Source: Methanomicrobiales archaeon
GTDB taxonomy: Archaea > Halobacteriota > Methanomicrobia > Methanomicrobiales > Methanospirillaceae
DNA length: 64,000 bases
Direction: 5' to 3'
Assembly: GCA_012516785.1 (NCBI GenBank)
Contig: JAAYWH010000073.1
Coordinates: 1-64,000, forward strand
Part shown: positions 4,182 through 26,911 of the stretch, piece by piece
Layout: each line of letters starts with the position of its first letter
How positions within the stretch are numbered: position 1 is the first letter of the stretch
Notes under the pieces: model-generated
Seen by the model: the letters and a program-made list of their open reading frames with translations, nothing else
What the model was told of the DNA's origin: nothing
The model's database searches: none
Position numbers and translations under genes: made by a program

Positions 4182-4907
4182 GTGGCGGTCCGGAGGGACC
4201 TGCGGGAGTATCTCCTTGAGGCAGAGTTTACCGTAAGGCAGGGCGAGATCATGGTACTGATTGGAGAGAACGGGTCCGGGAAATCGAGCCTGCTCCATCT
4301 TATCGCCGGACTCCTTCCACCTGGTTCAGGGCATGTAAAGATCGGAGAGCAGGTGCTCTATGACAGCATGAATGGGATCCATGTACCACCCGAATACAGG
4401 GAGATCGGGCTGGTCTTCCAGAACCATGCCGTCTTCCCTCACCTGACCGTCTTTGAGAACATTGCATTTGGCCTGCGGAGAAGAAAGGTACCAGAGCCCG
4501 AGATCCGTGAACGGGTTGGGGAGATCCTCGCCAGAGTCTCTCTCGAAAACCTTTCAGGAGTCCGGGGGGACCAGCTCTCCGGGGGAGAGCGGCAAAGAAC
4601 AGCCCTTGCACGCGCACTTGTCATCTCCCCAACGCTGCTCCTCCTTGACGAGCCAGTCAGTGCCCTTGATGCAGTCGCCCAGGAGCGTATGCGGTCTTAC
4701 CTCCATACGTATGTCAAAACATCCAATATTCCCTGTATTGTCGTGACTCATTCGTTCAGGGATGCTGCATCACTCGGTGACCAGGTGGGGGTCATGGAAA
4801 GAGGCCGGATTATCCAGAATGGAGATCTTGAAGAGATCAGGGGAAATGGAAGTCATTTCCTTCACCAATTTTTTTGTGGGTGCCGGAAGGATTCATGCCA
4901 CTTGTAG
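4182..4907 (+). CDS. modC: ModC, molybdate ABC transporter ATPase lacking the TOBE domain
   Basis: A 241-residue ABC ATPase that starts with GTG two bases after modB. Walker A is GENGSGKSS (residues 28-36), the Q-loop is VFQNHAVFPH, the signature is LSGGERQR and Walker B is LLLLDEPVSALD. Length and content correspond to the nucleotide-binding domain only. The C-terminal TOBE/Mop regulatory domain of longer ModC proteins is absent, while a separate Mop protein is encoded at 1772. The last residues are cysteine-rich (FCGCRKDSCHL). Confidence 0.92.
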   Translation: MAVRRDLREYLLEAEFTVRQGEIMVLIGENGSGKSSLLHLIAGLLPPGSGHVKIGEQVLYDSMNGIHVPPEYREIGLVFQNHAVFPHLTVFENIAFGLRRRKVPEPEIRERVGEILARVSLENLSGVRGDQLSGGERQRTALARALVISPTLLLLDEPVSALDAVAQERMRSYLHTYVKTSNIPCIVVTHSFRDAASLGDQVGVMERGRIIQNGDLEEIRGNGSHFLHQFFCGCRKDSCHL

Positions 4908-7243: not shown

Positions 7244-9298
7244 TTACGCCACCTTCTCAACCTTGACGGCACAGTGCTTGAGTTCAGGCATCTTTGAGAG
7301 AGGGTCAAGGGCGGTATTGGTCAGGTTGTTCACACCCTGGTTGAAGTGCATCGCCATGTACAATACTTTCGGTGCAACGTCTTCTGAGACCCTTGCCTTG
7401 GTGATGGTCTCACCACGGCGACTCGTCACCTTGACCTTGTCCCCTTCCTTGATTCCCAGTTCCTTCGCATCCTGCGTGTTGATCTGGATGTAGGACTCGG
7501 GCACTTCATAATGCAGTTGTTTGGCACGGTCGGTCTGGGTCCTCGTGTGGTAGTGGAAGATCACACGCCCTGTCATCAGCGAGAACGGGTATTGTGAATC
7601 CGCTACTTCCGCAGGTGGCCGGTACTCGAGGCCGAACATGGTACCTTTCCCATCTGCTGCCGAGAACTTTCCGATGTGAAGGATCGGGGTCCCGGGGTGT
7701 TCGATGGTTGGGCAGGGCCAGTGAACTGACTCGGGCTTTTCCATCTTCTCGTACGTTACCCCGAACTGGCCCGGGGTGGTTGCACGCATGTCGTCCCAGA
7801 CGTCCTTGGCACTCTTCCAGTCAAAGCCTTTGAGGCCCATCTTTTTCGCGAGCAAGGAGATGATTTCCCAGTCGTATTTCGACTGCCCGGGTCCGTCAAC
7901 AGCCTTCCTGACACGGTTGCCCCGCCGCTCGCCGCTGGTGAACGTCCCGTCCTTCTCGGCAAAGCAGGTGCCGGGCAGGACAACATCAGCATAATCGCAG
8001 CTCTCGTTCCAGAAGATGTCCTGCATGACGCAGAAGTCGAGTTTCTCAAGCTGCCTCTTGACATGGTTCGAGTCAGGGTAGGAGACCGTCGGGTTCAGGC
8101 CCATGAAATACATTGCCTTGACAACGGAGCCGGCATCGTTGATCTGCTCGGTCAGGGTCGAACCGTACCAGTCAGGGAGTGAACCCTCCTTCAGGTGCCA
8201 GGCCTTCTCATGTTTGGCACGGTTCTCAGGGACTGCAACAGCCTGGTATCCGGCGAAGACGTTCGGATAGGCGCCCATATCGCAGGCACCCTGCACGTTG
8301 TTCTGGCCACGAAGCGGGTTGACCCCTACCCCCGGGCGGCCGATGTTGCCGGTGAGCAGCGAGAGGTTACCCATGGAACGGACATTGTCGGTCCCGGTGG
8401 TGAGTTCGGTGATGCCGAGGCAGTAGATGATGACTGCGTTCTTGGCGTTGGCATACTTGCGGGCAAACTCCTTGACCGTCTCTTGCGGGACCCCGTGGAT
8501 ATTCGTGGCATCGGCATACTTCTGGACCATTGCTTTGAGGTCATCGAAGCCTTTCGTCCGCTCCGCGATGAACTCCTTGTCCTCGAGGCCTTCCTTGATG
8601 ATGTAGTACATCATGTTGTTGGCGAGCGCGATGTGGGTTGACGGGTTGAACCGGATCCACTGGTCGGCAAGGCGTGCCGTTGCACTGTAGCGCGGGTCGA
8701 CCACGACAATTGGGATACCCTTCTTCTTGGCCTGCATGACGCGGCGGCCGGCAAGCGGGTGGGCCTCTACTGCATTGGAGCCCCACATCACAATCAGGTC
8801 AGAATTCAGGACGTCTTCGAACGGATTTGTGGCTGCACCGGAGCCAAAGGAGAGCGAGAGCCCTGCGACGGATGGTCCGTGGCAGATACGGGCGCAGTTG
8901 TCAACGTTGTTGGTCAGGAATGCACACCGTGCAAACTTCTGTAAAGCGTAGCAGTCCTCGTTGACGGTACGGCAGGACGTCTGGAAACCAAGCGCCTTGG
9001 GGCCGTGCTTTTTATAGACCTCCGTGAACTTCTTGACGATCAGGTCAAGGGCTTCATCCCAGGAAGCATCCACGAACTTTCCGTTCTTCTTGATCTTCGG
9101 TGTCGTGAGCCGGTCGGGGCTCTGGACATGTTCCCAGCAGGTCATTCCCTTGGGACAGAGCTTGCCTTCATTGATCGGAGACCGCTTATAGGGCTCTACT
9201 CCTACCAGCTTTCCATCGCTGACAACAAGGTTGAGTCCACAGCCGACCCCACAATACGGGCAGGTGGTTGGTACATACTTCAATGCTTCATTACTCAT
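7244..9298 (-). CDS. fdhA: FdhA, formate dehydrogenase catalytic subunit (copy 1)
   Basis: A 684-residue Mo/W-bis-MGD oxidoreductase that oxidises formate to CO2. The N-terminal [4Fe-4S] ligands are CPYCGVGC (Cys13, 16, 20) plus Cys48 in KLCPKG. The catalytic segment VDNCARICHGPSVAG carries cysteine (about residue 139) where some relatives have selenocysteine, followed by the conserved histidine. No in-frame UGA is present. ATG 9298 is preferred over ATG 9304 because the GGGGG ribosome-binding run directly abuts 9304. It faces away from an FmdE-like gene across a promoter region containing a palindrome. Confidence 0.95.
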   Translation of the reverse strand: MSNEALKYVPTTCPYCGVGCGLNLVVSDGKLVGVEPYKRSPINEGKLCPKGMTCWEHVQSPDRLTTPKIKKNGKFVDASWDEALDLIVKKFTEVYKKHGPKALGFQTSCRTVNEDCYALQKFARCAFLTNNVDNCARICHGPSVAGLSLSFGSGAATNPFEDVLNSDLIVMWGSNAVEAHPLAGRRVMQAKKKGIPIVVVDPRYSATARLADQWIRFNPSTHIALANNMMYYIIKEGLEDKEFIAERTKGFDDLKAMVQKYADATNIHGVPQETVKEFARKYANAKNAVIIYCLGITELTTGTDNVRSMGNLSLLTGNIGRPGVGVNPLRGQNNVQGACDMGAYPNVFAGYQAVAVPENRAKHEKAWHLKEGSLPDWYGSTLTEQINDAGSVVKAMYFMGLNPTVSYPDSNHVKRQLEKLDFCVMQDIFWNESCDYADVVLPGTCFAEKDGTFTSGERRGNRVRKAVDGPGQSKYDWEIISLLAKKMGLKGFDWKSAKDVWDDMRATTPGQFGVTYEKMEKPESVHWPCPTIEHPGTPILHIGKFSAADGKGTMFGLEYRPPAEVADSQYPFSLMTGRVIFHYHTRTQTDRAKQLHYEVPESYIQINTQDAKELGIKEGDKVKVTSRRGETITKARVSEDVAPKVLYMAMHFNQGVNNLTNTALDPLSKMPELKHCAVKVEKVA

Positions 9299-9346
9299 AT
9301 TCATCCCCCTGTAACGGAGACATCCGGCGGAAAATCCGGACTTCTG

Positions 9347-9502: not shown

Positions 9503-10144
9503 ATGCAGTTTCCGAGCCACTCCCGCGCGTCCACCGAAATGCGGGAGAGCATGGACGCCTATGGAATCAGTCCTGCGCTTCAAGAACAGTTTACCCGGTG
9601 CAGCAGTTTTCACACGGTGACGGCACCCGGCCTCTTTATCGGTGTCTTCATGGTGGACTACGCACTTGAGCTCCTTGGCGCCCGCCACGGCGAGAAACTT
9701 TACGCTGTTGCTGAGACTTATAAGTGTATTCCCGATCCCATACAGGTTATGGCGGGCTGTACCTTTGGAAATCACCGCCTCCAGGTGGTCCCGATTGGAA
9801 AATTTGCCCTTACGATGAACCGGCCTTCTGAAAAATATGCGATCGAAGGGGTGCGTGTCTATGTGAATGCCGAAAAGTTGAAAAAATTCCGGATTATCAA
9901 CGCATGGTATACCCATAGTCCCGGGTTTGACAGTGGGACAATGATCTACCCGCTAATCGATGAAATCCTGAAAGCCGGCCGTGATATCCTCTCATACCAA
10001 CGGGTTATCGTCAGGGTGCCCCCAAAGAGTTCGTGGAAGTCAGTCAAGTGCAACGACTGCGGAGAGATGGTCCCTGATATTGCCCTGGAAGGGGATCACT
10101 GCAAGGGGTGCGGTTCACAGTCTTATTATGAAGTCCTCTCGTGA
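9503..10144 (+). CDS. FmdE-family protein with C-terminal zinc ribbon (copy 1)
   Basis: A 213-residue protein of the FmdE family, named after a gene in formylmethanofuran dehydrogenase operons. The N-terminal domain has FHTVTAPGLFIGVFMVDYAL and the GCTFGNHRLQVVPIGKFAL segment. The C-terminus is a zinc ribbon, CNDCGEMVP then CKGCG. Function is unproven; a role in Mo/W cofactor handling is suspected. A TATA box (CTTATAAAAG, about 9473-9482) lies about 25 bases before the ATG, supporting a leaderless start. It is divergent from fdhA copy 1, and a paralogue stands in the same place beside fdhA copy 2. Confidence 0.85.
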   Translation: MQFPSHSRASTEMRESMDAYGISPALQEQFTRCSSFHTVTAPGLFIGVFMVDYALELLGARHGEKLYAVAETYKCIPDPIQVMAGCTFGNHRLQVVPIGKFALTMNRPSEKYAIEGVRVYVNAEKLKKFRIINAWYTHSPGFDSGTMIYPLIDEILKAGRDILSYQRVIVRVPPKSSWKSVKCNDCGEMVPDIALEGDHCKGCGSQSYYEVLS

Positions 10145-10292: not shown

Positions 10293-11528
10293 TTATTTGA
10301 ATATATCAAAGATCTGGTCACTTCCGGTCGCTGCAAGCCGGTCACGCTCTTCACGCTCTTCGACAAGCGCAAGGAGAGGCAGCGACATATCAACACCCGG
10401 GACATGCCCGAACATCTTCTCGAGCTCGACCTGCTGGGCATGCATGAACAATGCATTCGGAATATCCATCGCACAGAGTTCCTGGCACTGGCCGCAGTTT
10501 ATGCATGAGTCGGCGATGTGTGCGAACCGGATGAGGTGGAACATGAAATTCGGCGGGACTTCCCCAGGTTTTACAAGATATGGTTTCTTCGTGCTGCATT
10601 CAACGCAGTAGCAGATCGGGCAGTTCTCAATGCAGGCATAACACTTGATGCACCGCGAGGTCTCCTTCACGATCTTCTTGAGACGTTCTCTTCCCTCCCC
10701 CAGGCCTTCAAAGTCCTTCTTCCGCCACTTGTCACTGAGTTTGTACATCGCGTTCTCGACTTTGGCCCGAATCTCAAGACCCTTCGGATTTGGAGCCTCG
10801 GTCTTGATCCTGCCGTCCTTGACCGCCCTGTCCAGGAGGTCGGCTCCCTTGGTACTGCAGACCTCGACAAACGTTGCTTTCCCGGCCTTGTCCCCGATGA
10901 CACCCCAGTTTCCACAGGCAAGGTCTGCCTGGCGAGTCACCTTCAACTTGCACCGGCGGCAGTTGCTCCTCCGCCCATAACCCTGCTCTTCGAGTTCATC
11001 GATGGAGATGCCCTTGTGGCCTCCCTCGTACTCGATGATGAACTGGCCCTTGTCGATCTCTTCCTTGTGGACCGTGTCTGGGTCCACTCCGAACTTTTCG
11101 GCGATCATCTTCCGGGCTGTGACCGGGGAGACCGTGCCCCCGCAGTTCACCCCGATCATGATGATATTGTCAAGGTTAACCTGCTGGCGCTTCGCCAGCT
11201 CGTAGAGCCCCATCATGTCACATCCCTTGACCGTCATTGCGATCTTCTGGGTGCCAGCGCCGTCTAAGTATTTCTTGACAAGCTTGGACAGAAGGAGTGT
11301 TCCACAATGGAGCGACCCTGCGGTTTTATCAATATCTTTCGGATCGGTGATGATCACCGGGACCGCATCGTAGAGATCCTGCCCCCTCGTGACGGCAAAA
11401 ACTCCATCGACAATCTTCTTCTCGAGCGCATACTTCAGAAGGCCGCTCACCGCTCCCCCGCACTCCGCCTTCTTTGCGAGGTCAGCATCGGTGGTCCATG
11501 CATAATACATGTCACCTTTCTTTGACAT
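10293..11528 (-). CDS. fdhB: FdhB, F420-reducing formate dehydrogenase beta subunit (copy 2)
   Basis: A 411-residue paralogue of the FdhB at 6092. It shares GYGRRSNCRRCK, ACGNWGVIGDKAG and both ferredoxin-like clusters (CIKCYACIENCPIC and CINCGQCQELC), and carries a longer C-terminal tail. ATG 11528 is chosen by analogy with copy 1 (MSKKGDM). A GTG at 11534 overlaps the fdhA stop as GTGA and is an alternative start two codons longer. It should accept electrons from FdhA copy 2. Confidence 0.94.
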   Translation of the reverse strand: MSKKGDMYYAWTTDADLAKKAECGGAVSGLLKYALEKKIVDGVFAVTRGQDLYDAVPVIITDPKDIDKTAGSLHCGTLLLSKLVKKYLDGAGTQKIAMTVKGCDMMGLYELAKRQQVNLDNIIMIGVNCGGTVSPVTARKMIAEKFGVDPDTVHKEEIDKGQFIIEYEGGHKGISIDELEEQGYGRRSNCRRCKLKVTRQADLACGNWGVIGDKAGKATFVEVCSTKGADLLDRAVKDGRIKTEAPNPKGLEIRAKVENAMYKLSDKWRKKDFEGLGEGRERLKKIVKETSRCIKCYACIENCPICYCVECSTKKPYLVKPGEVPPNFMFHLIRFAHIADSCINCGQCQELCAMDIPNALFMHAQQVELEKMFGHVPGVDMSLPLLALVEEREERDRLAATGSDQIFDIFK

Positions 11529-11530
11529 GC

Positions 11531-13603
11531 TCACTTCGCCTCCGCGATCTTCTCAACAGCAACGGCACAGTGCTTCAGCTCGGGCATCTTGGACATCGGA
11601 TCAAGGGCCGTGTTGGTGAGGTTGTTTGCACCATTCGGGAAGTGCATGGCCATGTAGAGCACACCAGGGGCTACTTCATCCGTAACCCGGGCAAGTGGCG
11701 TGGTCTCTCCCCTGCGGCTGCGTACCTTGATATGGTCACCCTCTTTGATCCCGAGTCTCTTCGCATCATCGGTATTGATCTGGACGAAGTTCTCTGGCAC
11801 CTCGTAATGGAGCACCTTTGCACGGTCGGTCTGGGTCCTCGTGTGGTAATGGAAGATCAACCGTCCGGTCATCAGGGTAAACGGGTATTCCGCATCTGCT
11901 ACCTCAGCGGGTGGGCGATACTCGATACCAAAGAAGGTGCCAAGGCCGTCAGGTGAAGCAAATTTCTCCTTGTGCAGGATAGGTGTCCCGGGGTGTTCAA
12001 CAGTCGGGCAAGGCCAGTGGACAGATCCTGGGATGTCGATCCGTGCATTGGTAGCACCGAACATGGACGGAGTGACCGACCGCATGTCATCCCAGATTTG
12101 CTGGGGTGACTTGAAGTCGAATCCTTTCAGCCCAAGTTTCTTTGCTAGCAGTACAAAAATCTCCCAGTCCTCCTTTGCCTCGCCAGGGGGATTGACAGCC
12201 TTCCTGACACGGTTGATCCGCCGTTCTCCGCTGGTGAACGTCCCATCCTTCTCCGCAAAGGATGCTCCGGGAAGGACTACGTCCGCATACTCGCAGGTCT
12301 CGGTGAAGAAGATATCCTGTACGACCAGGAAGTCGAGCTTATCGAGAGATCGTTTCACGTGGTTCGAGTCCGGGTAGGAGACTGCCGGATTCAGGGCGAA
12401 GATATACATTGCCTTGATGGGATCGCCACACTGGGAGATCTGCTCAGTCAGGGTCGACCCGTACCACTCCGGCAGCGATCCGGCCGGCATGCCCCAGGCC
12501 TCCTCCATCTTCTTCCGCATCTCCGGGAGCTCGCACTTCTGGTAGCCTGAATAGACATTCGGATAGGCACCCATGTCGCAGGCACCCTGCACGTTGTTCT
12601 GGCCACGGAGGGGATTGACACCGACACCAGGGCGCCCGATATTCCCGCAGAGCATCGAGAGGTTCCCGAGCGACCGGACGTTGTCGGTCCCGGTGGTGAG
12701 TTCGGTGATGCCAAGGCAGTAGATAATGACACCATTCTTTGCAGCGGCGTACTTCCGTGCCATGTCCTTCACCGTCTCAACAGGAACCCCGGTGATCTTC
12801 TCAACATCCGCGTAGTTCTCGACGGTCTTTTTCAGGTCCTCGAATCCCTTCGTCCGCTTCTCGATAAATTCCTTGTCGTGGAGGTTCTCCTTGATGATCC
12901 AGTACATCATTGAGTTGATAAGGGCGATATGGGTCGAGGGATTGAACCGGATCCATGTATCCGCGAGCCGTGCGGTCGGGCTGTACCTGGGATCGACAAC
13001 CATGATGGGGATACCCTTCAGCTTCGCCTGTGCAATCCGCCGGCCTGCAAGCGGGTGTGCTTCCACCGCATTCGAACCCCATACAAGTATGAAATCGGAA
13101 TTGAGGACATCCTCGAACGGATTTGTCGCCGCTCCGGATCCAAACGAAAGCGAGAGTCCTGCGACTGAAGGGCCGTGGCAGATTCGGGCGCAGTTGTCGA
13201 CATTGTTGGTTTTGAATCCCACCCGGGCAAGTTTCTGCATGATGTAGCACTCTTCATTCGGTGTCCTGCAGGAAACCTGGAATCCGATGGATTTCGGACC
13301 GTTTTTATCCGATATCTCCTTGAATTTCGTAGCTACCAAGTCAAGGGCTTCGTCCCAGCTCGCCTCTTCGAACTTCCCGTTCTTCTTGATCAACGGTTTG
13401 GTCAACCGGTCGGGGCTGTGGATGAACTCCCAGCAGGTCATACCTTTTGGGCAGAGCTTGCCCTCGTTGATCGGACTTCGCTGCCAGGGGGCTACACCAA
13501 CTGCTTTCCCATCTTTGACGATGAGGTTCAGCCCGCACCCTACTCCACAGTAGGGGCATGTTGTGGGCACGTATTTCAGGGTTTCTGGTTTGGCATTAGT
13601 CAT
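11531..13603 (-). CDS. fdhA: FdhA, formate dehydrogenase catalytic subunit (copy 2)
   Basis: A 690-residue paralogue of the FdhA at 7244 with the same CPYCGVGC iron-sulfur motif and VDNCARICHGPS active-site cysteine. The start is set at ATG 13603 (MTNAKPETLKYV), which matches copy 1. A longer frame from TTG 13657 adds a leader with no family support. A TATA-like element (TTTATATTTTAAAT, minus strand, about 13682-13697) would leave a short untranslated leader. The two copies may differ in metal use or expression. Confidence 0.95.
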   Translation of the reverse strand: MTNAKPETLKYVPTTCPYCGVGCGLNLIVKDGKAVGVAPWQRSPINEGKLCPKGMTCWEFIHSPDRLTKPLIKKNGKFEEASWDEALDLVATKFKEISDKNGPKSIGFQVSCRTPNEECYIMQKLARVGFKTNNVDNCARICHGPSVAGLSLSFGSGAATNPFEDVLNSDFILVWGSNAVEAHPLAGRRIAQAKLKGIPIMVVDPRYSPTARLADTWIRFNPSTHIALINSMMYWIIKENLHDKEFIEKRTKGFEDLKKTVENYADVEKITGVPVETVKDMARKYAAAKNGVIIYCLGITELTTGTDNVRSLGNLSMLCGNIGRPGVGVNPLRGQNNVQGACDMGAYPNVYSGYQKCELPEMRKKMEEAWGMPAGSLPEWYGSTLTEQISQCGDPIKAMYIFALNPAVSYPDSNHVKRSLDKLDFLVVQDIFFTETCEYADVVLPGASFAEKDGTFTSGERRINRVRKAVNPPGEAKEDWEIFVLLAKKLGLKGFDFKSPQQIWDDMRSVTPSMFGATNARIDIPGSVHWPCPTVEHPGTPILHKEKFASPDGLGTFFGIEYRPPAEVADAEYPFTLMTGRLIFHYHTRTQTDRAKVLHYEVPENFVQINTDDAKRLGIKEGDHIKVRSRRGETTPLARVTDEVAPGVLYMAMHFPNGANNLTNTALDPMSKMPELKHCAVAVEKIAEAK

Positions 13604-13787
13604 AGAAATCGTTCCGGAAATCTTGATTCCTGGGGTCCTCGATAAATTGTTGTACAATAGAATAAGCAGGGCTTGAAGGTATTTAAAATATAAACAATTA
13701 TAATTAACAATTTGCCAACTTAATTAAATATTATTTATTAACCCTGCTGCGGTATGTGGTATTACATTGGAAAACGCGCAAATTTGT

Positions 13788-13836: not shown

Positions 13837-14481
13837 ATGTCAGAAATTGGGAGCGAGATACAATCCCTGATGGACGCTCACGCCATCTCACCGCGTTTAC
13901 AGGACTATTTCAAGCGTTGCATCGAATTCCATACCTATCCGGCACCCGGGCTCCTTATCGGAGTCTTCATGGTCGACTATGCAGTTGAGGAACTTGGTGC
14001 AACTCCCGGAGAAAAATTGTATTCAGTCTGCGAAACTCAGAAATGTGCCCCAGATCCCCTGCAGGTCATCCTCCATTGCACCTCAGGGAACCACCGGCTT
14101 CGGATCATTCCTATGGGCAGATTTGCATTGACCCTGAACCGTCCCTCCACAGAACCCTTCACGGATGGTATCAGAATCTTTATCGATCCCGGGAAATTGG
14201 AAAAGTGTCCCCTCATCAAGGCTTGGTTTTCCAACGACCCTGCGTTCAATCAGAGGGCAAAGGCAGTACCCCTGATCGATGAGATATTCAGGGCAGGTCG
14301 TGATATCCTCTCTACTGAAAAAGTCCGTGTGAAGGTGACTCCCAAGCAGCAGTGGCAATCGGGAAAATGCCGTGTCTGTGGAGAGTTGGTTCCTTCTGAC
14401 CTGCTGGATAAGGGGGTCTGCATTGGCTGTGGCCCGAATGCGTATTATCAAAAAGATCTAAGCTCTTCACAGCGGCAATAA
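13837..14481 (+). CDS. FmdE-family protein with C-terminal zinc ribbon (copy 2)
   Basis: A 214-residue paralogue of the protein at 9503. It has FHTYPAPGLLIGVFMVDYAV, the HCTSGNHRLRIIPMGRFAL segment and a C-terminal CRVCGELVP...CIGCG zinc ribbon. It is divergent from fdhA copy 2, repeating the arrangement of the first cassette. The repeated pairing suggests a function tied to formate dehydrogenase rather than only to formylmethanofuran dehydrogenase, which is inference. Confidence 0.85.
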   Translation: MSEIGSEIQSLMDAHAISPRLQDYFKRCIEFHTYPAPGLLIGVFMVDYAVEELGATPGEKLYSVCETQKCAPDPLQVILHCTSGNHRLRIIPMGRFALTLNRPSTEPFTDGIRIFIDPGKLEKCPLIKAWFSNDPAFNQRAKAVPLIDEIFRAGRDILSTEKVRVKVTPKQQWQSGKCRVCGELVPSDLLDKGVCIGCGPNAYYQKDLSSSQRQ

Positions 14482-14947: not shown

Positions 14948-15428
14948 TAGCTATCAATGGAACATTAGCGCGAGGATCTCATCTGGGATGCACTCGGATT
15001 CCACGGAGAATATTGTCCAACCTCTGCAGGTGCGGTGAGGTGATGATACCTGATCTCCGATGGTTGGGGGGTGATCTCGCAGGAGATGAGATCACCTGTA
15101 GTCTGGGACCCGATCCCTGGATTAATGACACTCTTAGGTGGGGCCTCAGGGGCAAGTCTGTAAACAGACGGCTCATCATATCTGAAGGCTGGGCTGGGAA
15201 AACCAGTTTACCGGCAATCAGACCGTGGAACATCACTCGAATTCCGGGATATAGTTATACCGTCTGATAATGCTTCCGTACATTACCCATCTGCCAGTGA
15301 CTAATTCTCCCTGAAGGTTAATAATAAATAATTTACATATCAAACCAGTAAACATTGAATACCTTTCAGTACGGATCCGGGACGATGTTCCATGCCTGTG
15401 AACCCATAGCCCACCATGAAGGTTGGAG
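14948..15428. other. Non-coding stretch before the moeA-like gene
   Basis: No credible gene is seen; open frames here are short and lack family signals. It contains the inverted repeat at 15070-15096 and a smaller GTCTG/CAGAC stem near 15155-15168. An AT-rich segment (AATAATAAATAATTTA, about 15320-15336) may be the promoter of the moeA-like gene. Confidence 0.5.
15070..15096. repeat. 9-bp inverted repeat
   Basis: GGTGATCTC (15070-15078) and GAGATCACC (15088-15096) are perfect inverted repeats with a 9-base spacer. They lie mid-intergenic between the trmO pseudogene and the moeA-like gene. The role is unknown. Confidence 0.4.
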
Positions 15429-17333
15429 ATGATGAAGAAGCGTTACCTTACCCTCCAGACCCTTGATGATGCCCTCACCATGATGAAGACGGCTTTTCCT
15501 CTATCAGGAGGATCCATGACCATCCCCATCACCGAAGCGGAAGGCAGGGTTGCATCGGAACCGATCTTTGCCCGGTATACCGTCCCGGATTCTTTTATTG
15601 CAGAAATGGATGGCATTGCGGTCAAGAGCAGCTCCACCGTAGGGGCAGGGGAACAGCGTCCCGTCACACTCACCGACTTTCTCAGGGTTGATACGGGGAA
15701 TATGATCCCTACGGAATACGATGCAGTTATCATGATCGAGGATGTCTGCCTTGCGGGGTCCTCCTGTATTGTACGGAAAGCAGCCCGGCCTGGGCAGCAT
15801 ATCCGTCCTCCCGGCCAGGATATCCGGAAAGGAGACCAGATCATCCCCCGGGGTCACCAGATCCGTTCCTCTGATATCAGTGCCCTCGCAACCTATGGGT
15901 ATGATACCGTTGCGGTAAGAATCGTCCGTGTTGGTATTCTCCCCACTGGCAATGAGCTTGTTCCGATCGGAACGGTGCCAGGACCTGGCCAGGTGATCGA
16001 GACGAACAGCGTCTTTGCCGCCTCGTTCCTCTCCCGCCTCGGCGCTCTCTGCACAACCTATCCGCTCGTGCGTGATAATCCTGTTCAGATTACACAGGCA
16101 CTGGAAAAGGCGGTCCTGGAAAATGATCTTGTACTCATATCCTCAGGGACCTCGGCGGGAAGGCATGATTATTCGGCTCAGATCATCAGGAATATTGGAA
16201 GACTCCTCTTCCACGGAGTTGCGATTTTGCCGGGAAAACCAGCAATACTCGGTGAAATCCAGGGAAAACCGGTGGTGGGATTACCCGGATATCCTGTGGG
16301 CTCCCAGACCGTGCTTCGCGAGATCGTTGCGCCGTTCCTCGTCTCGTGGGGGCTTGCCCCCCTTCCCCACTGGATTATCCGAGGAAGGCTTGCACGGGAT
16401 ATGCCCTCTGATCTAGGGTTCGATGAATATGTACCGGTATCGGCTGGAGCAGTCAACGGGACGTCCTGGATCTTTCCCCATCCCCGCGGTTCAGGCCTCC
16501 AGATGAACCTGGTCCGGGCGAACGGCTATCTTCATATCCCGCTTGCCAGCGAGGGATGGGAGGCCGGTGCATGGGTTGATATCCATTGCACCACCCTTCC
16601 CCACCAGATTGACCGCACCCTTCTTTGTATAGGGGCAAAAAATCCTGGTATCCGGCAACTCGCCTATGCCCTTGCGGACCGTTCTGTCATGTTGCAAACT
16701 TTTGATGACCTCTCTTCGCGGGCGCTCCTTGCACTCCGGAAAAATTCCTGTCATCTTGTTGCCCTTACTATTCCGGATCTATATGGGGACATCGGAGCAA
16801 GGTATGCATGGAACGATACTCATGCCGTCGTTATTCATCTTGGCAAGATGCCGGTCGGTATCGTCTCGCATACCAGTGCAGGGAGTGCCGACCTTGATCA
16901 TCTTCGGGTGGTACATTCTCCCAAAGGTTCAACCGGAAGAATTCTGATTGACAGGCTGATTGCTGCAAAGAAAATTGGTCATGACCAGATTGTAATGAAC
17001 AGCAATGCGGTAAAAACGGAGCATGCAGTGATATCGGCGGTGAAAACCGGTATTGCGGATGTAGGAATCAGCTCGGCAGTCCTTGCAAAGGAAGCAGGAC
17101 TGGCGTTTGTTCCCCTCACCCATGAATTCCATGTTCTGGTAGCCCGGAAGGAGTCACTTGAGGATGAGAGAATACAAGTCCTCCTGCAGATTGTCCAGTC
17201 TCCGGAATTCACGCGTTCTCTTGAGGAATGGTATACTACGGCTTGTACCGGAAAGGTCGAGGAATGTACCGCTGACTCCTTCCAGGGAAATGCTTTATTC
17301 CGGGATGGGGTTGTCGATCCTGGAACAGAATAA
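15429..17333 (+). CDS. moeA: MoeA-type molybdopterin molybdenumtransferase fused to a periplasmic-binding-like domain
   Basis: A protein of about 634 residues. The first 400 or so are MoeA, which inserts molybdate or tungstate into adenylylated molybdopterin. Motifs are EMDGIAVKS, ISSGTSAGRHDYS and GLPGYPVGSQ. The last 220 form a PBP-like (LysR substrate-domain type) module with SAGSADLDHLRVV and FVPLTHEFHVLVARKE, an architecture seen in some archaeal and bacterial MoeA proteins; that domain may sense the ligand. The open frame begins at TTG 15423, but ATG 15429 (or 15432) is the likelier start, with AAGGT a few bases before it. Confidence 0.88.
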   Translation: MMKKRYLTLQTLDDALTMMKTAFPLSGGSMTIPITEAEGRVASEPIFARYTVPDSFIAEMDGIAVKSSSTVGAGEQRPVTLTDFLRVDTGNMIPTEYDAVIMIEDVCLAGSSCIVRKAARPGQHIRPPGQDIRKGDQIIPRGHQIRSSDISALATYGYDTVAVRIVRVGILPTGNELVPIGTVPGPGQVIETNSVFAASFLSRLGALCTTYPLVRDNPVQITQALEKAVLENDLVLISSGTSAGRHDYSAQIIRNIGRLLFHGVAILPGKPAILGEIQGKPVVGLPGYPVGSQTVLREIVAPFLVSWGLAPLPHWIIRGRLARDMPSDLGFDEYVPVSAGAVNGTSWIFPHPRGSGLQMNLVRANGYLHIPLASEGWEAGAWVDIHCTTLPHQIDRTLLCIGAKNPGIRQLAYALADRSVMLQTFDDLSSRALLALRKNSCHLVALTIPDLYGDIGARYAWNDTHAVVIHLGKMPVGIVSHTSAGSADLDHLRVVHSPKGSTGRILIDRLIAAKKIGHDQIVMNSNAVKTEHAVISAVKTGIADVGISSAVLAKEAGLAFVPLTHEFHVLVARKESLEDERIQVLLQIVQSPEFTRSLEEWYTTACTGKVEECTADSFQGNALFRDGVVDPGTE

Positions 17334-17487: not shown

Positions 17488-17703
17488 TCAGTGTTTCTGT
17501 CTCTCTTTCTCGTCATCGGGTATCTCTTCGAAGTAAATGACTTCGGCACCGACGTCCTTTGCGATCTGCTCGATCTCAAACTTCCTGAAGTGGGTCAGTT
17601 CAATCTGGACGGTTCCCCCAGTGACTGCCACGATCCGGTACATCGGTTGCTTTACCCCTTCGCGGACCTTCATCCGCTCCCTGACATAGATCTTCATCTT
17701 CAT
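17488..17703 (-). CDS. Small hypothetical protein divergent from the MoSto-like gene
   Basis: A 71-residue, highly charged protein (MKMKIYVRERMKVREGVKQP at the start). The GGAGGGTGA ribosome-binding site 6-7 bases upstream is the strongest seen in this region and supports a real gene. The predicted fold is a short beta-alpha-beta pattern, and no family is recognised. It shares a promoter region containing several palindromes with the MoSto-like gene, so co-regulation by molybdate or tungstate is plausible but inferred. Confidence 0.7.
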   Translation of the reverse strand: MKMKIYVRERMKVREGVKQPMYRIVAVTGGTVQIELTHFRKFEIEQIAKDVGAEVIYFEEIPDDEKERQKH

Positions 17704-17721: not shown

Positions 17722-17790
17722 CTGGTAAAACAGAACATCTGTTATACCAACTGGTTTACAGTATACTGTATTAACCATTACTGATATAAA
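17722..17790. promoter_or_regulatory. Divergent promoter with palindromes before the MoSto-like gene
   Basis: The stretch contains TACCAACTGGTT (17745-17756), identical over 12 bases to the operator-like palindrome before the TupA-WtpA gene. It also has the perfect 14-bp palindrome TACAGTATACTGTA (17757-17770), flanked by GGTT and AACC. A TATA box (GATATAAACC, 17783-17792) follows and lies about 20-24 bases before the ATG at 17806. Sites placed just upstream of a TATA box are typical of archaeal activators or repressors. Confidence 0.6.
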
Positions 17791-17805: not shown

Positions 17806-18618
17806 ATGAAGCGGGATCGGTTTGAAGTCACTAACAAGCTCCAGGGAGAGTCACTGGTACGGAAAGGCTTGCTGAAGGCATACGAGGGCAGGAGCCAGCT
17901 CCGGATGATGCCCGATCTGAACGTGGTAAAGATCGGAGGCCATGGTATCATCGATTACGGGAAAGAGGTGCTCCTGCCGCTTCTGACCGAGATCGGGGAG
18001 CTTTCACGTGAGAACCAGATCCTTGTGGTCACGGGCGGAGGAGTGAGAGTGCGTCATATCCTTGACCTCGGCCTTGACCTCGGGTTGCCGACCGGTGTCC
18101 TTGCAGAGCTTGCCGGGAAGATCAGTGAGCAGAATGCGATCATGGTATCAATCCTGCTCTCGAAATACCACGGGACGCGGATCCATACCGGGGACCTTCT
18201 CGAACTCCCCATGCTGATGAACCTGGGCGTCCTCCCGGTCATCCATGGGACGCCTCCCTATGGTTTATATGAGCAGCCCGCCCACATCGGCTCGATTCCC
18301 CCAAACCGCACCGATACAGGGGCGTTCCTTGCCGCAGAGGTACTTGGCGCAAAGAACCTCATCCTCGTGAAGAATGTGGATGGCTTGTTCACAGCAAATC
18401 CGTTCACTGATACCACAGCCGAGATCATCCCGGATATCACTGCAGCAGAGCTCCTGGCAATGGAGATGGAGGACATGGTTCTTGAGCCGAGAGTGGTCGA
18501 GCTGATGATGAATGCCAAACATGTGCATGAAGTCAAGATCATCAACGGCCATGAGCCAGGGAATCTCCGTCGCGCCATTGCAGGCGAGCGAATCGGTACG
18601 GTAATCCGCGCAGTATGA
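17806..18618 (+). CDS. Molybdenum/tungsten storage protein (MoSto)-like amino acid kinase family protein
   Basis: A 270-residue protein of the amino-acid/UMP-kinase fold, closest by eye to the MosA/MosB subunits of the Azotobacter molybdenum storage protein. It shares VVKIGG, VTGGGVRVRH, GLDLGLPTGVLAELA, PPNRTDTGAFLAAEVLGA, NVDGLFTANP and the C-terminal GHEPGNLRRAI and RIGTVIRA. MoSto uses ATP to pack polyoxomolybdate or tungstate clusters. Length also fits (270-276 residues). ATG 17806 is chosen over 17794 because the TATA box lies about 23 bases before it. The next gene, 25 bp downstream, is a MOT1-type transporter, which strongly supports a metal-oxyanion role over UMP kinase. Confidence 0.85.
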   Translation: MKRDRFEVTNKLQGESLVRKGLLKAYEGRSQLRMMPDLNVVKIGGHGIIDYGKEVLLPLLTEIGELSRENQILVVTGGGVRVRHILDLGLDLGLPTGVLAELAGKISEQNAIMVSILLSKYHGTRIHTGDLLELPMLMNLGVLPVIHGTPPYGLYEQPAHIGSIPPNRTDTGAFLAAEVLGAKNLILVKNVDGLFTANPFTDTTAEIIPDITAAELLAMEMEDMVLEPRVVELMMNAKHVHEVKIINGHEPGNLRRAIAGERIGTVIRAV

Positions 18619-18643
18619 GTAAAACACCGACTGACAGGATATC

Positions 18644-19765
18644 ATGCCCCAGGATTCCAAACCCCCACTCAGGTTTGGTATCGGTGAGCTGGCAGGCAGC
18701 CTTGGTGATTTCGGGACCATCCTTCCCCTCTCTCTCGCGCTTGCCGCGACTGGCGCCCTCGGGATAGGGCCGGTCCTCCTTTTTCTGGGCATCTGGTTCA
18801 TCATCACCGGGTATTATTACCGGTACCCGGTCCCCGTTGAGCCCATGAAGGCCATTGCCGTCATTGCGGTCGCAGCCGGGATGTCGGGAGGGGAGATCGC
18901 TGCTGCCGGGTATATCCTCGGGGCCATTTTCCTCCTCATCGGTTTCACCAATGTTCTTGAAATAATTGAACGGTATATCCCACTGCCTGTAGTCCGGGGT
19001 ATCCAGCTGGGGCTGGCCCTTATCCTCCTCAAAACAGCAGTGGGATACCTCATTCCTGATCCAGGGCATTTCTTCCTGGGGGCAATGATCATCATTGGAG
19101 GATTCCTGGTGGCATACCACTTTCGTGTTCCGGATCTCTCCTCAATTGCGGTCATCATCGTTGCGATTGCGGCCGGTATCCTTGCACAGGGATTCCCTCC
19201 GATAACCACACTTTCCCTCTCCCCTGGTGCAATTCCTACTGGATCAGAGATAATTGCGTCACTCCGGGAGCTAGTCCTCCCCCAGGCTATCCTTACCATC
19301 ACCAATGCCATTCTCGCAACGTCATTGCTCGCTAAAGACCTGTTTTCAGCTGATATCCGCCCAAAAAAGCTCTCCAAAACAATTGGTCTCATGAATCTCA
19401 CATCGATTCCGTTCGGGGGGATGCCTATGTGCCACGGTGCCGGTGGGATGGCCGGCCAGTACCGGTTCGGGGCAAGAACCGGTGGTGCAAACATCTATGC
19501 CGGAATCTTCCTTATCGGGGCTGCCCTTCTTTTTGCAAGCACCGCATGGGTCGGTCTGATCGCCCCTGGTTTCTATGCTGCCCTCCTCATCTTTGTCGCG
19601 ATAGAACTGGCGAGGCACGGATTAAAGACCAGCTCATACCTCGTGACCTTCACTACTGCGGTTCTGTCGTTACTCGTCTCGATGACGGTAGCATTCATCG
19701 TGGGAATGTGCCTTGCATACGGTGTCCCCTCTCTCATGAAACAGATCGGAGAAAAAAGCAGGTGA
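18644..19765 (+). CDS. MOT1-family molybdate (tungstate) transporter
   Basis: A 373-residue protein with about ten hydrophobic segments. It carries the two signature blocks of MOT1-type high-affinity molybdate transporters, a SulP-related group. The first is GELAGSLGDFGTILPLSLAL followed by PVEPMKAIAVIA. The second is GGMPMCHGAGGMAGQYRFGA. It probably moves molybdate or tungstate across the membrane. It follows the MoSto-like gene by 25 bp in the same direction, so import and storage appear coupled in one operon. This route is separate from modABC. Confidence 0.87.
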   Translation: MPQDSKPPLRFGIGELAGSLGDFGTILPLSLALAATGALGIGPVLLFLGIWFIITGYYYRYPVPVEPMKAIAVIAVAAGMSGGEIAAAGYILGAIFLLIGFTNVLEIIERYIPLPVVRGIQLGLALILLKTAVGYLIPDPGHFFLGAMIIIGGFLVAYHFRVPDLSSIAVIIVAIAAGILAQGFPPITTLSLSPGAIPTGSEIIASLRELVLPQAILTITNAILATSLLAKDLFSADIRPKKLSKTIGLMNLTSIPFGGMPMCHGAGGMAGQYRFGARTGGANIYAGIFLIGAALLFASTAWVGLIAPGFYAALLIFVAIELARHGLKTSSYLVTFTTAVLSLLVSMTVAFIVGMCLAYGVPSLMKQIGEKSR

Positions 19766-20813: not shown

Positions 20814-22757
20814 CTAGGCCATCACCACACCGCTCTCTTTTAATGCTGCGGGGACGTTGCCGTAGCCGAGTGCCGGGTCAATGACCTCCTGCCCGTCAGC
20901 AGTGAGGATATCCTGGCCGGTCTGGCTTACGAGGATCTTGATATATTCAAGTCCAAGGTCGGGGTTCCGTGCATTCTTCGGCACGGTAACCGCGTAGATG
21001 ATCGGGGTTCCGGTCTCGGTTGCCGTGGTGGTTCCGCTGATCCGCTTCACCTTGACAGTTGCATACGAATCGGCGTATTCCTGGGAAGAGAGATCCATTC
21101 CCACCGGGAGTTCGATATACGGCAGACCGTTCTGGATCGCCACGCTGCTGTATTCGATCGCGTAGTCAGCCTTGCCTTCCTTCAGGATGGTGACCACGTC
21201 AGGACCGGATTTCCCTATCACGAGCTTTCCATCGGGGGTGGGCTTGGTGACATCGATCGTGTACTTTCCGTCAGCAAACGTCCTGGTCATCTTGCTGTGG
21301 GCACCGAGGAGGCTGGAGAAGATCGTATCTACGCCATACACCCGTTCTGCGAGTTGGATCGACATAACCGCACGGTAGCCTGCCGGGTCAGTGTTGGGAT
21401 CGCTGATCACGTACTTGACGTCCGGGGTGTTGAGGATCTCGTACCAGTTATCAGGAGTGATTTCATCGTTATACTTGCTCTGGTTGGTATACACCACGAC
21501 CATGTGGTTCTTTGCAAACGTGACATAATAGTCAGCGTAGGTCGGGTACATCAGGGTCGGGATGAGGTAGGCATCGGCTGAGGCAAGCACATCGGCCTTC
21601 TTGCCCTGTTTTGTGATCTTCTCTATCATGGTGACGCTCCCTCCACCGAAGAGCTGGGCGTCGACCAGCGGGAACTGGCTCTCGTATACCGTTTCAATCT
21701 TTGCGAAAGGCGCATTGAGGCTTCCGGCATTAAAGACGGTCATCGGTTCGATTGCGGTTGCTTCCCCTGTGCAGACACAGTTGAACCGGCTGCAGTTGCC
21801 GTTCATCGCGGAGAAGAGGTTCTTCCCGTACTTCTCTTTTCCATAGTTGTCGATATCGGCCTGCGTCTCCGGTGAGATCATGAAGTTGACGAAGTTGTTC
21901 GCCATCTCGATCTTCTCTGTTGTCGTTTTGTCGTTGTAGACCGTGATCACGGAATACACGTTGAGGAGGATAGCGCCTTCACTCACGAGAGGTTCCAGTT
22001 CGAGATCGCCCTGGTAGGCCAGGTACGTCCCTTCATCGGTCAGAGTGTAGGCCCCTTTCTCGGACGCGAGCTGAAGTGTCTCGCCCATCCCTCTGCCAGC
22101 CTCGATATACCAGTTGCCCGATTTCTGGACATCCTTGGTATAGTTGAACTTTGCAGAAGCCCAGACGGCCTTTTCAGCCGAGTGAGTACCGGAATTGTCA
22201 CCACGCGAAACGAACATCACACCCGGGGTGTTTGCCTTCCCTTTGGTGAGAATAGTGGTGAATGCCTGCTCGGGGGTCATCCCTTTTATACCGGCGGGAT
22301 CGCTGGGTGGCCCGACGATAATGAAGTAGTTGTAGGCAAAGCAGCGGCGGTTCAGCCCAGCCCCATCCTCCATGTAGGCGACCTCCTGTGCGGGTGAGTG
22401 GACGGCGAGGATATCGCAGTCGCCTTTCTTAGCAACTTCAATGGCTTTCCCGGTCCCCTGTGAGGTGATCAGGAGTTCGGCGTTATACTTCTCCTCAAAC
22501 TTTGGTTTCAGGTAGTCAAGGAGCCCGGTATCATAGAGGCTCGTCGTGGTTGCAAGGAGTACCTTTGTTTTCGGCCCGACAGGAGTTGTTGGAACGGTGG
22601 TCGGTACGGCAGTTGCATTACCCGTCTCACTGGGGGTGGGGGTCACGGTAGGAGTACCGGCGCCCGGTTCGCTGGTCGTGCATCCTGCAAATACTGCAAA
22701 ACCAACGACCAGGAGAGAGAGGATTATGAAAATGCTGAGATGTTTCTTCAATGTCAT
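20814..22757 (-). CDS. Fused TupA-like and WtpA-like tungstate/molybdate-binding lipoprotein
   Basis: A 647-residue secreted lipoprotein. The signal segment ends in VFAGC (Cys26), followed by a Thr/Pro-rich linker to about residue 62. Residues ~63-330 are TupA-like: LLATTTSLYDTGLLD, ITSQGTGKAIEVAKKGDCD and RGDNSGTHSAE. A short linker with three cysteines leads to a WtpA/ModA-like domain (from ~337): TVFNAGSLNAPF, GGGSVTMIEKIT, GKKADVLASADAYLIP and YADYYVTFAKN. Each domain alone normally serves an ABC importer. No permease or ATPase lies next to it; modBC at 3.4-4.9 kb are the only candidates in view. A palindrome precedes the gene. Confidence 0.88.
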   Translation of the reverse strand: MTLKKHLSIFIILSLLVVGFAVFAGCTTSEPGAGTPTVTPTPSETGNATAVPTTVPTTPVGPKTKVLLATTTSLYDTGLLDYLKPKFEEKYNAELLITSQGTGKAIEVAKKGDCDILAVHSPAQEVAYMEDGAGLNRRCFAYNYFIIVGPPSDPAGIKGMTPEQAFTTILTKGKANTPGVMFVSRGDNSGTHSAEKAVWASAKFNYTKDVQKSGNWYIEAGRGMGETLQLASEKGAYTLTDEGTYLAYQGDLELEPLVSEGAILLNVYSVITVYNDKTTTEKIEMANNFVNFMISPETQADIDNYGKEKYGKNLFSAMNGNCSRFNCVCTGEATAIEPMTVFNAGSLNAPFAKIETVYESQFPLVDAQLFGGGSVTMIEKITKQGKKADVLASADAYLIPTLMYPTYADYYVTFAKNHMVVVYTNQSKYNDEITPDNWYEILNTPDVKYVISDPNTDPAGYRAVMSIQLAERVYGVDTIFSSLLGAHSKMTRTFADGKYTIDVTKPTPDGKLVIGKSGPDVVTILKEGKADYAIEYSSVAIQNGLPYIELPVGMDLSSQEYADSYATVKVKRISGTTTATETGTPIIYAVTVPKNARNPDLGLEYIKILVSQTGQDILTADGQEVIDPALGYGNVPAALKESGVVMA

Positions 22758-23811: not shown

Positions 23812-25119
23812 TCAGAACTCGACGACCATCACCGCTTCTTCTTCTTCCCGAAGCTCCCCTTTCAAATGCCGTGCATCAAACTGGTAGCTCTTCCAGGGAT
23901 CATATTCCTCATACAGTTCGCATTTGTCCAGGACATCGACCAGCTCTTTGAGGAATATCCGGGGGATGACATCGATCCGCCCCCCGAATTTTCCCGTAAG
24001 CCTGTTGATCATGGCCCTGATGAACCGGTGTGAGACTCTGTTCCGATCTACCTCGCCATACGCTTCTGAATAAATGGTGATGACCTTATAGGCTACCTGC
24101 TCGAGTTTCTTTGCATCAAACTTGGAGAGCGAGATCTGGGGCTGGCGGGGATTTCTGAATTCACCACTATCAGTAACACCGATCCGGTCTGCGAGAGGTG
24201 GGATTGAGCGGATCCCCCTCGGGCCTTCAAAAAAGGCCGGAGTACCGGTGAAGAAGAAGTAACAATAGGGCATCTCGCCACGATCAAGGGAATCTATGAT
24301 CAACCGGAGCGTGGTATATCCCTTCTCACGCTGGTTCCTCGGGAGCGTCTGCGTCGTCTCAAGTTCATCAATTGCAACCGCAAGACCAGCGTATCCTGCA
24401 TTGACAGTAATCCTGACGATTGCACGGAGGAAAATGAGCGCGAAGGTCTCATCAACATCCCCCCTTATTCCTGCCTTTGCCTTGAATTCCCTGCCGATGT
24501 TCGGCTCAGCGGAGATCCAGCCGATAGCCGACTGCGCCGTCTGGAAATCACCGGCATTGTTTGCCCGGTAGTAGGTCCGGAGAGCCGCCGCAAGGGACGA
24601 ATTCATCTCTGATATCCCGGCAAGAGCGGTTTCTATCTCCTTGAGTGTGGCAATCTCGAGACTGTCTTCCGGAAGCGGGTGATCGCTCACTTTCAGGAGA
24701 CGTTCCTCAATGGAGAAGAGCCATGTGTCGATCACTGCCTTCATGGCATGCTCTTCTTCCCGTGTCCGGAGGGTCGCGCAGATCTGTTGGTACATCCCTT
24801 TCAACTTGTAGAGGGGGGATGCTGGTGAGATCACCACATGGGCAGTGACAAAGTTCTTCTCCCGTGCTATCTCAAGGGCTCTCGCGACAAGAAAGGTCTT
24901 GCCACTCCCGTAATCACCGCGAATAAATTTCAGGTCTCCTCCGCCATTTAACACATAATCGAGCTGGGAGGCGATAACCCCCTCCTCAACATCAATCCCG
25001 ACCGCAATACGTTCAAGACCGCCAGCCGGTACCGTTCCGCGCCGGAGTGCATTGATAATGTTGACACTCCCGGTCTTTCTCTTGTCCCCATGGTCAGCCA
25101 GTGTAGGCATATATCTCAC
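23812..25119 (-). CDS. BrxD-like (DUF2791) P-loop ATPase
   Basis: A 435-residue P-loop protein resembling BrxD of BREX phage-defence systems. It has NIINALRRGTVPAGGLERIAVG, the Walker A GDYGSGKTFL, a long helical centre with AIDELETTQTL as the Walker B region, and a GTPAFFEGPRG segment. In BREX, BrxD is one of several components; none of the core BREX genes (brxA, brxB, brxC, pglX, pglZ, brxL) is nearby. The start overlaps the 3' end of the TPR gene by 26 bp (ATG 25110 is an alternative), so the two are coupled. Confidence 0.8.
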   Translation of the reverse strand: MRYMPTLADHGDKRKTGSVNIINALRRGTVPAGGLERIAVGIDVEEGVIASQLDYVLNGGGDLKFIRGDYGSGKTFLVARALEIAREKNFVTAHVVISPASPLYKLKGMYQQICATLRTREEEHAMKAVIDTWLFSIEERLLKVSDHPLPEDSLEIATLKEIETALAGISEMNSSLAAALRTYYRANNAGDFQTAQSAIGWISAEPNIGREFKAKAGIRGDVDETFALIFLRAIVRITVNAGYAGLAVAIDELETTQTLPRNQREKGYTTLRLIIDSLDRGEMPYCYFFFTGTPAFFEGPRGIRSIPPLADRIGVTDSGEFRNPRQPQISLSKFDAKKLEQVAYKVITIYSEAYGEVDRNRVSHRFIRAMINRLTGKFGGRIDVIPRIFLKELVDVLDKCELYEEYDPWKSYQFDARHLKGELREEEEAVMVVEF

Positions 25120-26911
25120 CCCCTTTTCCTGAGCCCTTCTTTACAATTATGGGAAACCCGGATAAAGCACCTTTCTGCATAATACGGTTCATGATTCCAA
25201 CCACCCTCCGGGTATTCAGGAGCTGGCGGAGATCCATTTCGCTCGCTTCACGGTGGGTTCTGAGGAACTCGATGATCACCCTCTCCTGTTCATCGCATGA
25301 GTCAATGAAGTTCCGGAGTGCCTCATCCCGTTCATCTTTTACGGGATCTGCCCTTCTCGGTGCAAGGGCAGGGGTGTCGGAGAGCGTCTGCTCTTTGCAG
25401 GTTTTGATCAGCTCCAGAAAATCTTCCGGTCTTATGTGAGAAGAACCGGATGGGACGATGTCGAGGCCTCTCAGGCAGTATTCCTTGCAGCTCTGGTAAT
25501 CCCTGCTTTTCAACGCCTCACTCGCAGAGAGAAGGTATGCGACCGAAAGGTATTCGAATCCATCCGAACCCAGGGTCGGGATATGTCCCTCAAGCACGCT
25601 GACGAGACGGTCAAGGATCCTCTGTTGCGAGAAAAACCTCCATTCCTCCTCGAGGATGAATCCAGCGAGCGATTCAAGATCCCTGGTTTTCCGCACATTG
25701 TTCAGAATGTAAAGGAGCACCTTCTCGCCTTCCCTCCGTTCAGCCTGCCGGGCAAGGTAACGGGCATATGCAATACCGCCCGACAGGTAATCGCTCCTGT
25801 ATGCCCGGTAATAATACGACTGCGCTTCGGCATGATCGCCGATATCTTCATACAGCTTTGCAGACTCGATGAGGCAGACCACATGGGGGGTCCCTGACAC
25901 CTGCAGAAGGAATCGGGCGACTGCATCCCTGACTGGGTAATACGTCAGGAGATATTCGCGGTATCCGTCAAGAAGGTCAGACAGGAATCCTGGATCATCG
26001 ATATCTGATAGTGTCTCCCTGATCAGGTACTCAAAACAGCCCAGGGCTTTCTCTCTCTCCCCGGCCATCGCGTTCAGCCTGCAGAGAAGGAGCCGTATGC
26101 GCGGGTGGGAACCTGATCGGTCATCATCGAGGAGATCCCTCACCACCTGGAGCGCATCAGCAGGCTTTCCTGCAGAGAGGAGGAGTTGAGCATAATCGTA
26201 TCCGATTCCCGTATCTTTCAGGGCAAAGAAGAATTCGCGGTATTCCTGCTCCGCAGATCCGGGATGGTCCCGTGAAAGAGCCTGCAGGTACAGCCGGGCA
26301 CATTCAACAGAGCCTGTCTTCCGGTGTGCCCCGAGTGCCTCGCGGGCGGCTTCCGAAAAAATACCCGCCCCCATGAGGGCAGCGGCATGGTCCATGTCAG
26401 CACCGGTATGCCGGATGGAAGACCGGTATACCACAAGTGCCTCCCGTGCCTGGCCGGCAGAAATGAGTGCCTGTATCAACAGGCGTTGGTCTTCTTCTTT
26501 TCCGGAAAGTTGTGAAATCTTTTTAAGGATCGGGACGGCTCGGCGGTAGTCGCGCTGAGCCATGAGGCAGGCAGCATAGCTCCTGAGGGCCTCCAGGTTC
26601 CCAGGATCGAGCGTGATAGCCCGGATGTATTCGGCAACCGCGGCGTCTTCGTGTCTTCGTTCCAGTATCTTTCCAAGAAAACTGTGCAGGTAAGACGAAT
26701 CAGGCATCCCGTGGATCAGGTCCCGCACCAGCACCTCTGCCTCGTCCATCCTGTCGAGATTGAACAGGTTTCTCGCTGCCAGAATGGGGATCTGGGTGTC
26801 GGTACCCTGCTCACCGGCAGCACGGCAGATCTCGAGGGACTCGAGATATTTTCCCTCTTCAAAGAGCCTGAAGGCCATCCTGACGGACTCCTCCCGGTAA
26901 TCCTTATCCAT
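25094..26911 (-). CDS. TPR-repeat protein with C-terminal winged-helix-like domain
   Basis: A 605-residue protein. Most of it consists of helical pairs with TPR character (ALRSYAACLMAQRDYRRAVPIL, EYIRAITLDPGNLEALRSYA). The last 75 residues or so (EQERVIIEFLRTHREAS to the glycine-rich KKGSGKGGEIYAYTG end) look like a winged-helix domain. TPR repeats usually scaffold protein contacts. It overlaps the glycosyltransferase gene upstream by 8 bp and the DUF2791 ATPase downstream by 26 bp, so the three form a tight operon. Confidence 0.75.
   Translation of the reverse strand: MDKDYREESVRMAFRLFEEGKYLESLEICRAAGEQGTDTQIPILAARNLFNLDRMDEAEVLVRDLIHGMPDSSYLHSFLGKILERRHEDAAVAEYIRAITLDPGNLEALRSYAACLMAQRDYRRAVPILKKISQLSGKEEDQRLLIQALISAGQAREALVVYRSSIRHTGADMDHAAALMGAGIFSEAAREALGAHRKTGSVECARLYLQALSRDHPGSAEQEYREFFFALKDTGIGYDYAQLLLSAGKPADALQVVRDLLDDDRSGSHPRIRLLLCRLNAMAGEREKALGCFEYLIRETLSDIDDPGFLSDLLDGYREYLLTYYPVRDAVARFLLQVSGTPHVVCLIESAKLYEDIGDHAEAQSYYYRAYRSDYLSGGIAYARYLARQAERREGEKVLLYILNNVRKTRDLESLAGFILEEEWRFFSQQRILDRLVSVLEGHIPTLGSDGFEYLSVAYLLSASEALKSRDYQSCKEYCLRGLDIVPSGSSHIRPEDFLELIKTCKEQTLSDTPALAPRRADPVKDERDEALRNFIDSCDEQERVIIEFLRTHREASEMDLRQLLNTRRVVGIMNRIMQKGALSGFPIIVKKGSGKGGEIYAYTG

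Follow-up and report, generated by a model that had tools for sequence, protein, structure and literature searches.

A single gene of a Methanomicrobiales archaeon (Methanospirillaceae) encodes a protein that is a member of the lineage of MosA and MosB, the subunits of the molybdenum storage protein (MoSto) of Azotobacter vinelandii. The archaeal protein is a variant and not a canonical MoSto, in that it has neither two different subunits nor the MosA ligands. It is best explained as the building block of a homomeric cage of the MoSto type that would store molybdate and/or tungstate, and we regard this explanation as probable. The gene lies in the window (the whole stretch of DNA analysed, 64,000 nt, positions 1–64,000 of contig JAAYWH010000073.1 in assembly GCA_012516785.1), whose left 23 kb form an island of Mo/W and formate genes (Table 1). 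The island also holds TrmO, between the MOT1-family gene and the TupA–WtpA fusion.

Table 1. Features of the Mo/W and formate island, in order of position in the window
Feature	Position	Strand	Basis or remark
FdhD	401–1198
Mod-type ABC transporter: binding protein, permease, ATPase	2544–4907	+	Pfam SBP_bac_11, BPD_transp_1, ABC_tran; models leave substrate unresolved
Formate dehydrogenase alpha subunit, copy 2	7244–9304	-	TIGR01591 over cut-off, 3.8e-248
FrhB/FdhB-type beta subunit, copy 1	10293–11534	-	Pfam FrhB_FdhB_C 3.8e-40
Formate dehydrogenase alpha subunit, copy 1; likely Mo/W consumer	11531–13657	-	TIGR01591 over cut-off, 6.7e-258
FmdE-domain protein	13837–14481	+	Pfam FmdE 1.5e-27
MoeA-type molybdopterin molybdotransferase with C-terminal PBP domain	15423–17333	+	Pfam MoeA_N, MoCF_biosynth, MoeA_C, PBP_like
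Undescribed ~70-aa protein ("small"), divergent to MoSto	17488–17703	-	Conserved; no Pfam/NCBIfam family
Inverted repeat TGGTAAAACAGA/TCTGTTATACCA, overlapping the palindrome	17723–17749	.	12-nt arms, 92% complementary
Palindrome TATACCAACTGGTTTA, likely operator, consensus TATACCANNTGGTATA	17743–17758	.	Between MoSto and ~70-aa gene
Single-subunit MoSto-like protein, 270 aa	17806–18618	+	PDB match, AF2 model, tree; alternative upstream ATG at 17794
MOT1-family (PF16983) transporter, 373 aa	18644–19765	+	Pfam 3e-46, two stretches; 25 bp after MoSto stop
Fused double substrate-binding protein, TupA-like N half and WtpA-like C half	20814–22757	-	NCBIfam

An earlier note on this DNA had recognised MosA/MosB over the full length of the reading frame from four motifs (GLDLGLPTG, RTDTGAFLAAE, NVDGLFTA and GERIGTVI). 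All four occur in the translation, and the homology is borne out by phmmer against the PDB, where MosB matches over residues 12–273 (E=7e-62) and MosA over residues 14–272 (9e-48), the next family being UMP kinase at 2e-10. Identity to the A. vinelandii proteins is 41% for MosB and 37% for MosA. The AF2 model of the monomer has a pLDDT of 89.8, and its top 15 Foldseek matches are all MoSto chains, with TM about 0.9, as against 0.6–0.7 for UMP kinases. The start at 17806 is likelier than that at 17794, because it has GGAG a short way upstream and is the start in most relatives.

The same note had proposed that profiles and phylogeny be used to weigh the MosA/MosB assignment against a true UMP kinase, and both fall on the MoSto side. 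The archaeal UMP kinase (PyrH) has the amino acid kinase fold in common with the MoSto-like protein, whose score of 58.9 bits against its model (TIGR02076, NCBIfam) is nevertheless far under the cut-off of 158. A tree of 78 rows separates the UMP kinases, as a clade of their own, from the archaeal proteins together with MosA and MosB (support 100/100). A separate true UMP kinase gene is found in all 26 genomes searched, including that of the window, where it lies elsewhere in the genome. Score, tree and separate gene together rule out that the open reading frame is itself a UMP kinase. Within the MoSto side the archaeal proteins are set off (85/93) from the group of MosA and MosB, for which support is mixed (95/65). 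The archaeal proteins may thus represent a single-gene branch that predates the MosA/MosB duplication, with a root that is not firm.

The archaeal proteins share with both MosA and MosB about 20 positions, R85, H88 and R172 among them, that UMP kinases lack; an inserted PPY...P loop shows the same distribution. In the nucleotide site, K46, G48 and G49 are invariant among the archaeal MoSto proteins. The residues that bind metal in the bacterial protein are another matter. The Mo8 cluster is held by Glu129 and His156 of MosA (PMC4504029). In the archaeal proteins the MosA residues Glu129, His130, His140 and His156–158 are all replaced, so that none of the known sites of covalent cluster attachment is left: the Glu129 column holds His in 50 of 67 sequences, the His156 column Gly in 64 of 67, and the His140 column mostly Leu (57/67). 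We take His140 to be a cluster ligand as well, and ligand roles other than those of Glu129 and His156 are likewise presumed. Newly conserved in the same segment are H131 (50/67), H151 (46/67) and D134 (66/67), and among these His151 and Asp134 stand out as candidate residues. Since MosB, too, is without the cluster ligands, a homomer could resemble six MosB-like subunits. The idea of a storage protein linked to its own importer holds in part: homology to MosA and MosB, tight linkage to a MOT1-family gene and the Mo/W setting speak for it, while a single-subunit protein without Glu129, His156 and His140 of MosA cannot be assumed to share the same cluster chemistry.

The gene is no isolated case, as its description in the earlier note as a notable extension would imply. 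Sampling 393 genomes of the phylum gave 67 with the gene, most of them from the window's own order and some from beyond it; among 61 relatives, 47 have it. Archaea nearly always have one MoSto gene; it is single-copy in the window and in most relatives, which leaves no heteromer in most genomes. In bacteria a mosB–mosA pair is present in 80 of 80 loci (the best 80 MosB loci among the matches listed), all from Proteobacteria except one MAG labelled Chloroflexota. The MosB of that MAG (L164) is 85% identical to Azospirillum MosB, pointing to transfer or contamination. On Azospirillum plasmids (L047, L048) the annotation of MosB reads uridine kinase or UMP kinase, and that of the gene next to it MoSto alpha. 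One archaeal genus (g20; L061, L062, L063) carries MoSto as a tandem pair that was duplicated together with the ~70-aa partner gene; this is an independent duplication. At G356:C1:953997-954353 and L236 the MoSto match is short and contains an in-frame TGA and is thus a likely pseudogene, with the small gene and the palindrome remaining. nifD exceeds the cut-off in 3 of 47 relatives with MoSto, compared with 4 of 14 without it, and in the window's genome (90% complete) no nifD over the cut-off was found. With nifD in just 3 of 47, the link to diazotrophy fails to carry over to these archaea and is unsupported.

The neighbourhoods strongly support a role in Mo/W handling. As the earlier note had proposed, a gene with both MOT1 blocks follows the MoSto stop; it scores 156.8 bits against PF16983 (gathering score 30), the two matched stretches lying in one protein, an archaeal member of this molybdate transporter family and a predicted transporter. 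MOT1 is directly downstream of MoSto in the window's family, and the order MoSto–MOT1 is the same in independent assemblies of two close relatives, G009 and G011. On the left side the relatives have the winged-helix-like gene and tupBC where the window has MoeA; this junction is not an assembly artefact, because the arrangement recurs in full in G009 and the G011 assembly runs across it. More widely, 35 of 41 archaeal loci have at least one gene for MOT1 or a Tup/Wtp-type binding protein no more than 8 kb from MoSto, three of the remaining six having short flanks, as against 0 of 13 loci around UMP kinase genes of the same group. MOT1 itself is near MoSto in 27 of the 41 loci, a frequency matched by Tup- or Wtp-like binding proteins.

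Import genes of both the TupABC and the WtpABC type of tungstate transporter thus adjoin MoSto. Unlike in those systems, the window's TupA-like and WtpA-like binding proteins are fused, and tupBC-like genes lie on another contig (C88). The N half of the fusion matches TupA (1.1e-51, residues 64–315, below the NCBIfam cut-off) and the C half matches WtpA (TIGR03730, 2.2e-92, residues 339–609, over the cut-off). The fusion is unusual and is present in relatives of the genus at 87–94% identity. A second FmdE-like open reading frame (9503–10144, +) is 53% identical to the one in Table 1, and a BrxC/BrxD-like ATPase with a TPR protein (23812–26911, -) adjoins the island; a similar pair occurs in eight neighbourhood loci. 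What links MoSto to formate dehydrogenase as the consumer is proximity, two fdhA genes being nearby. Formylmethanofuran dehydrogenase is equally likely, and tungsten is as likely as molybdenum.

MOT1, the partner named in the earlier note, is surpassed in constancy by two other genes that belong to the MoSto system and were undescribed before. The first, encoding the ~70-aa protein, is the steadiest: it is present in 38 of 41 archaeal MoSto loci, usually divergent to MoSto, and in 67 of 67 genomes with MoSto compared with 3 of the 326 others. Those three are incomplete MAGs of one genus. Searches of Pfam and NCBIfam assigned the protein to no family. Its model has a beta-beta-alpha-beta arrangement, for which a fold search gave no match (best E 0.25). 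An accessory role in the cage is probable for the ~70-aa protein.

The second is the gene for a ~116-aa winged-helix-like protein, present in 30 of 41 archaeal loci and in 61 of the 67 MoSto genomes. Profile matches are weak and confined to some members (GntR 3e-4, HTH_24 4e-4), and PDB matches are likewise weak (E 0.02–0.7), three of the four being to the DtxR family. The window's genome shows the gene just as a fragment at the start of a contig (L216, G000:C88, 1–2103), where it is followed by a palindrome at 153 and then by tupB-like and tupC-like genes. Two genomes have the gene without MoSto (G311:C1:535719-536051 and G377:C70:1284-1625).

The palindrome upstream of MoSto, which like the small gene goes unmentioned in the earlier note, is the only match in the window, with 0.06 expected. 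Of 64 archaeal MoSto genes, 37 have the consensus upstream with at most two mismatches (0.08 expected by shuffling). The motif was first noticed visually in the window's family and then counted elsewhere, so that the counts include the discovery set. It lies mostly 45–66 bp before the MoSto start and is missing or weak in 27 of the 64 upstream regions. In loci that separate MoSto from the small gene, it is the latter that keeps the palindrome. A palindrome also occurs upstream of tupB in the window's own genome. Among 50 genomes (up to three mismatches allowed; G009 and G012 left out), the winged-helix-like gene and the palindrome occur together in 39, neither in 8, the gene alone in 3 and the palindrome alone in none; the corresponding Fisher value of 3e-7 overstates certainty, since the genomes surveyed are related and not independent. 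It is likely, to judge from this pattern, that the ~116-aa protein is an on/off switch acting on the palindrome.

These features can be assembled into a working model. The single-subunit protein would form a MoSto-type cage, homomeric and able to bind ATP. Molybdate and/or tungstate would be brought in by MOT1 and by Tup/Wtp/Mod-type transporters, and the cage would take up the cytoplasmic oxyanion and hold it in condensed form, with loading driven by ATP. Release would supply enzymes with the pterin cofactor, presumably formate and formylmethanofuran dehydrogenases. The winged-helix-like protein, for which most relatives have a complete gene adjoining the locus and the window's genome has the contig-end fragment, would probably set expression through TATACCANNTGGTATA between MoSto and the ~70-aa gene. 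A more ambitious reading, which we offer tentatively and place somewhat below an even chance, is that many methanogens of the order store Mo/W by a dedicated system that differs from bacterial MoSto: a homomeric cage lacking the MosA ligands; a strictly co-inherited ~70-aa protein that replaces the second subunit or controls loading and release; a dedicated winged-helix regulator with its operator; and delivery to C1 enzymes, not nitrogenase. Such a system might even preserve the state before the duplication.

A narrower form of the storage explanation would make the cage tungsten-specific, there to supply the formate and formylmethanofuran dehydrogenases that depend on W; molybdate would be incidental. 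The equal frequency of Tup- and Wtp-type neighbours, the fused binding protein and the palindrome upstream of tupB lean that way, as does the fact that A. vinelandii MoSto also takes up W (PMC6448029). With MOT1 and Mod-type genes present too, and Mo and W inseparable from sequence, we consider this restriction rather unlikely. It is improbable, and more so than a tungsten-specific store, that the protein is an ATP-binding Mo/W sensor, or delivers oxyanion (for example to MoeA, which adjoins in the window), instead of forming a bulk cage. In that case the MosA ligands would never have evolved in this branch, as would fit their absence, the weakly supported position of the branch outside MosA and MosB (95/65) and an invariant small partner; the protein nevertheless keeps the MoSto-specific insertion and the family residues and has new conserved His and Asp residues in the ligand segment, and MosB makes up half of the known cage without these ligands. 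An amino acid kinase family enzyme with a small-molecule substrate, its Mo/W neighbours due to co-regulation only, would share its fold with UMP, isopentenyl phosphate and acetylglutamate kinases and would explain the retained ATP-site residues, but is very unlikely in view of the UMP kinase that each of the genomes searched already has, the 100/100 separation from UMP kinases, the replacement of the UMP kinase Thr by Arg172, the MoSto-only insertion and the constant Mo/W neighbourhood.

The archaeal gene and its partners suggest that methanogens can build up reserves of Mo and W, both scarce, even where they do not fix nitrogen, and bear on how those reliant on Mo or W enzymes survive scarcity. 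To our knowledge, nearly everything known of MoSto comes from A. vinelandii. In 2019 a study described it as without known homologues in databases (PMC6448029), and our literature search found no paper linking the term "molybdenum storage protein" with methanogens. A widespread one-gene archaeal branch would offer a simpler cage in which to ask which residues nucleate metal-oxide clusters, and a way into the origin of the two-subunit form. The co-inherited small protein and the regulator–operator pair are new, directly testable leads.

Two known systems invite comparison. Tub/Mop proteins with TOBE domains, such as Tub of Eubacterium limosum, have the same proposed role in Mo/W storage, but their fold is unrelated to that of MoSto and they bind a few single oxyanions, with no ATP-dependent cage (PMC11980592). 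A. vinelandii MoSto (PDB 2OGX, 4F6T) shares with the archaeal protein its lineage and fold, the ATP-site residues and the MoSto-only insertion. The bacterial protein is the product of a mosB–mosA pair and carries Glu129, His140 and His156 in MosA, whereas the archaeal form is encoded by one gene in which these residues are replaced. Its partners are MOT1, Tup or Wtp proteins together with the ~70-aa and winged-helix-like proteins, the last two being absent from the bacterial loci examined, and, unlike A. vinelandii MoSto, it is not tied to nitrogenase.
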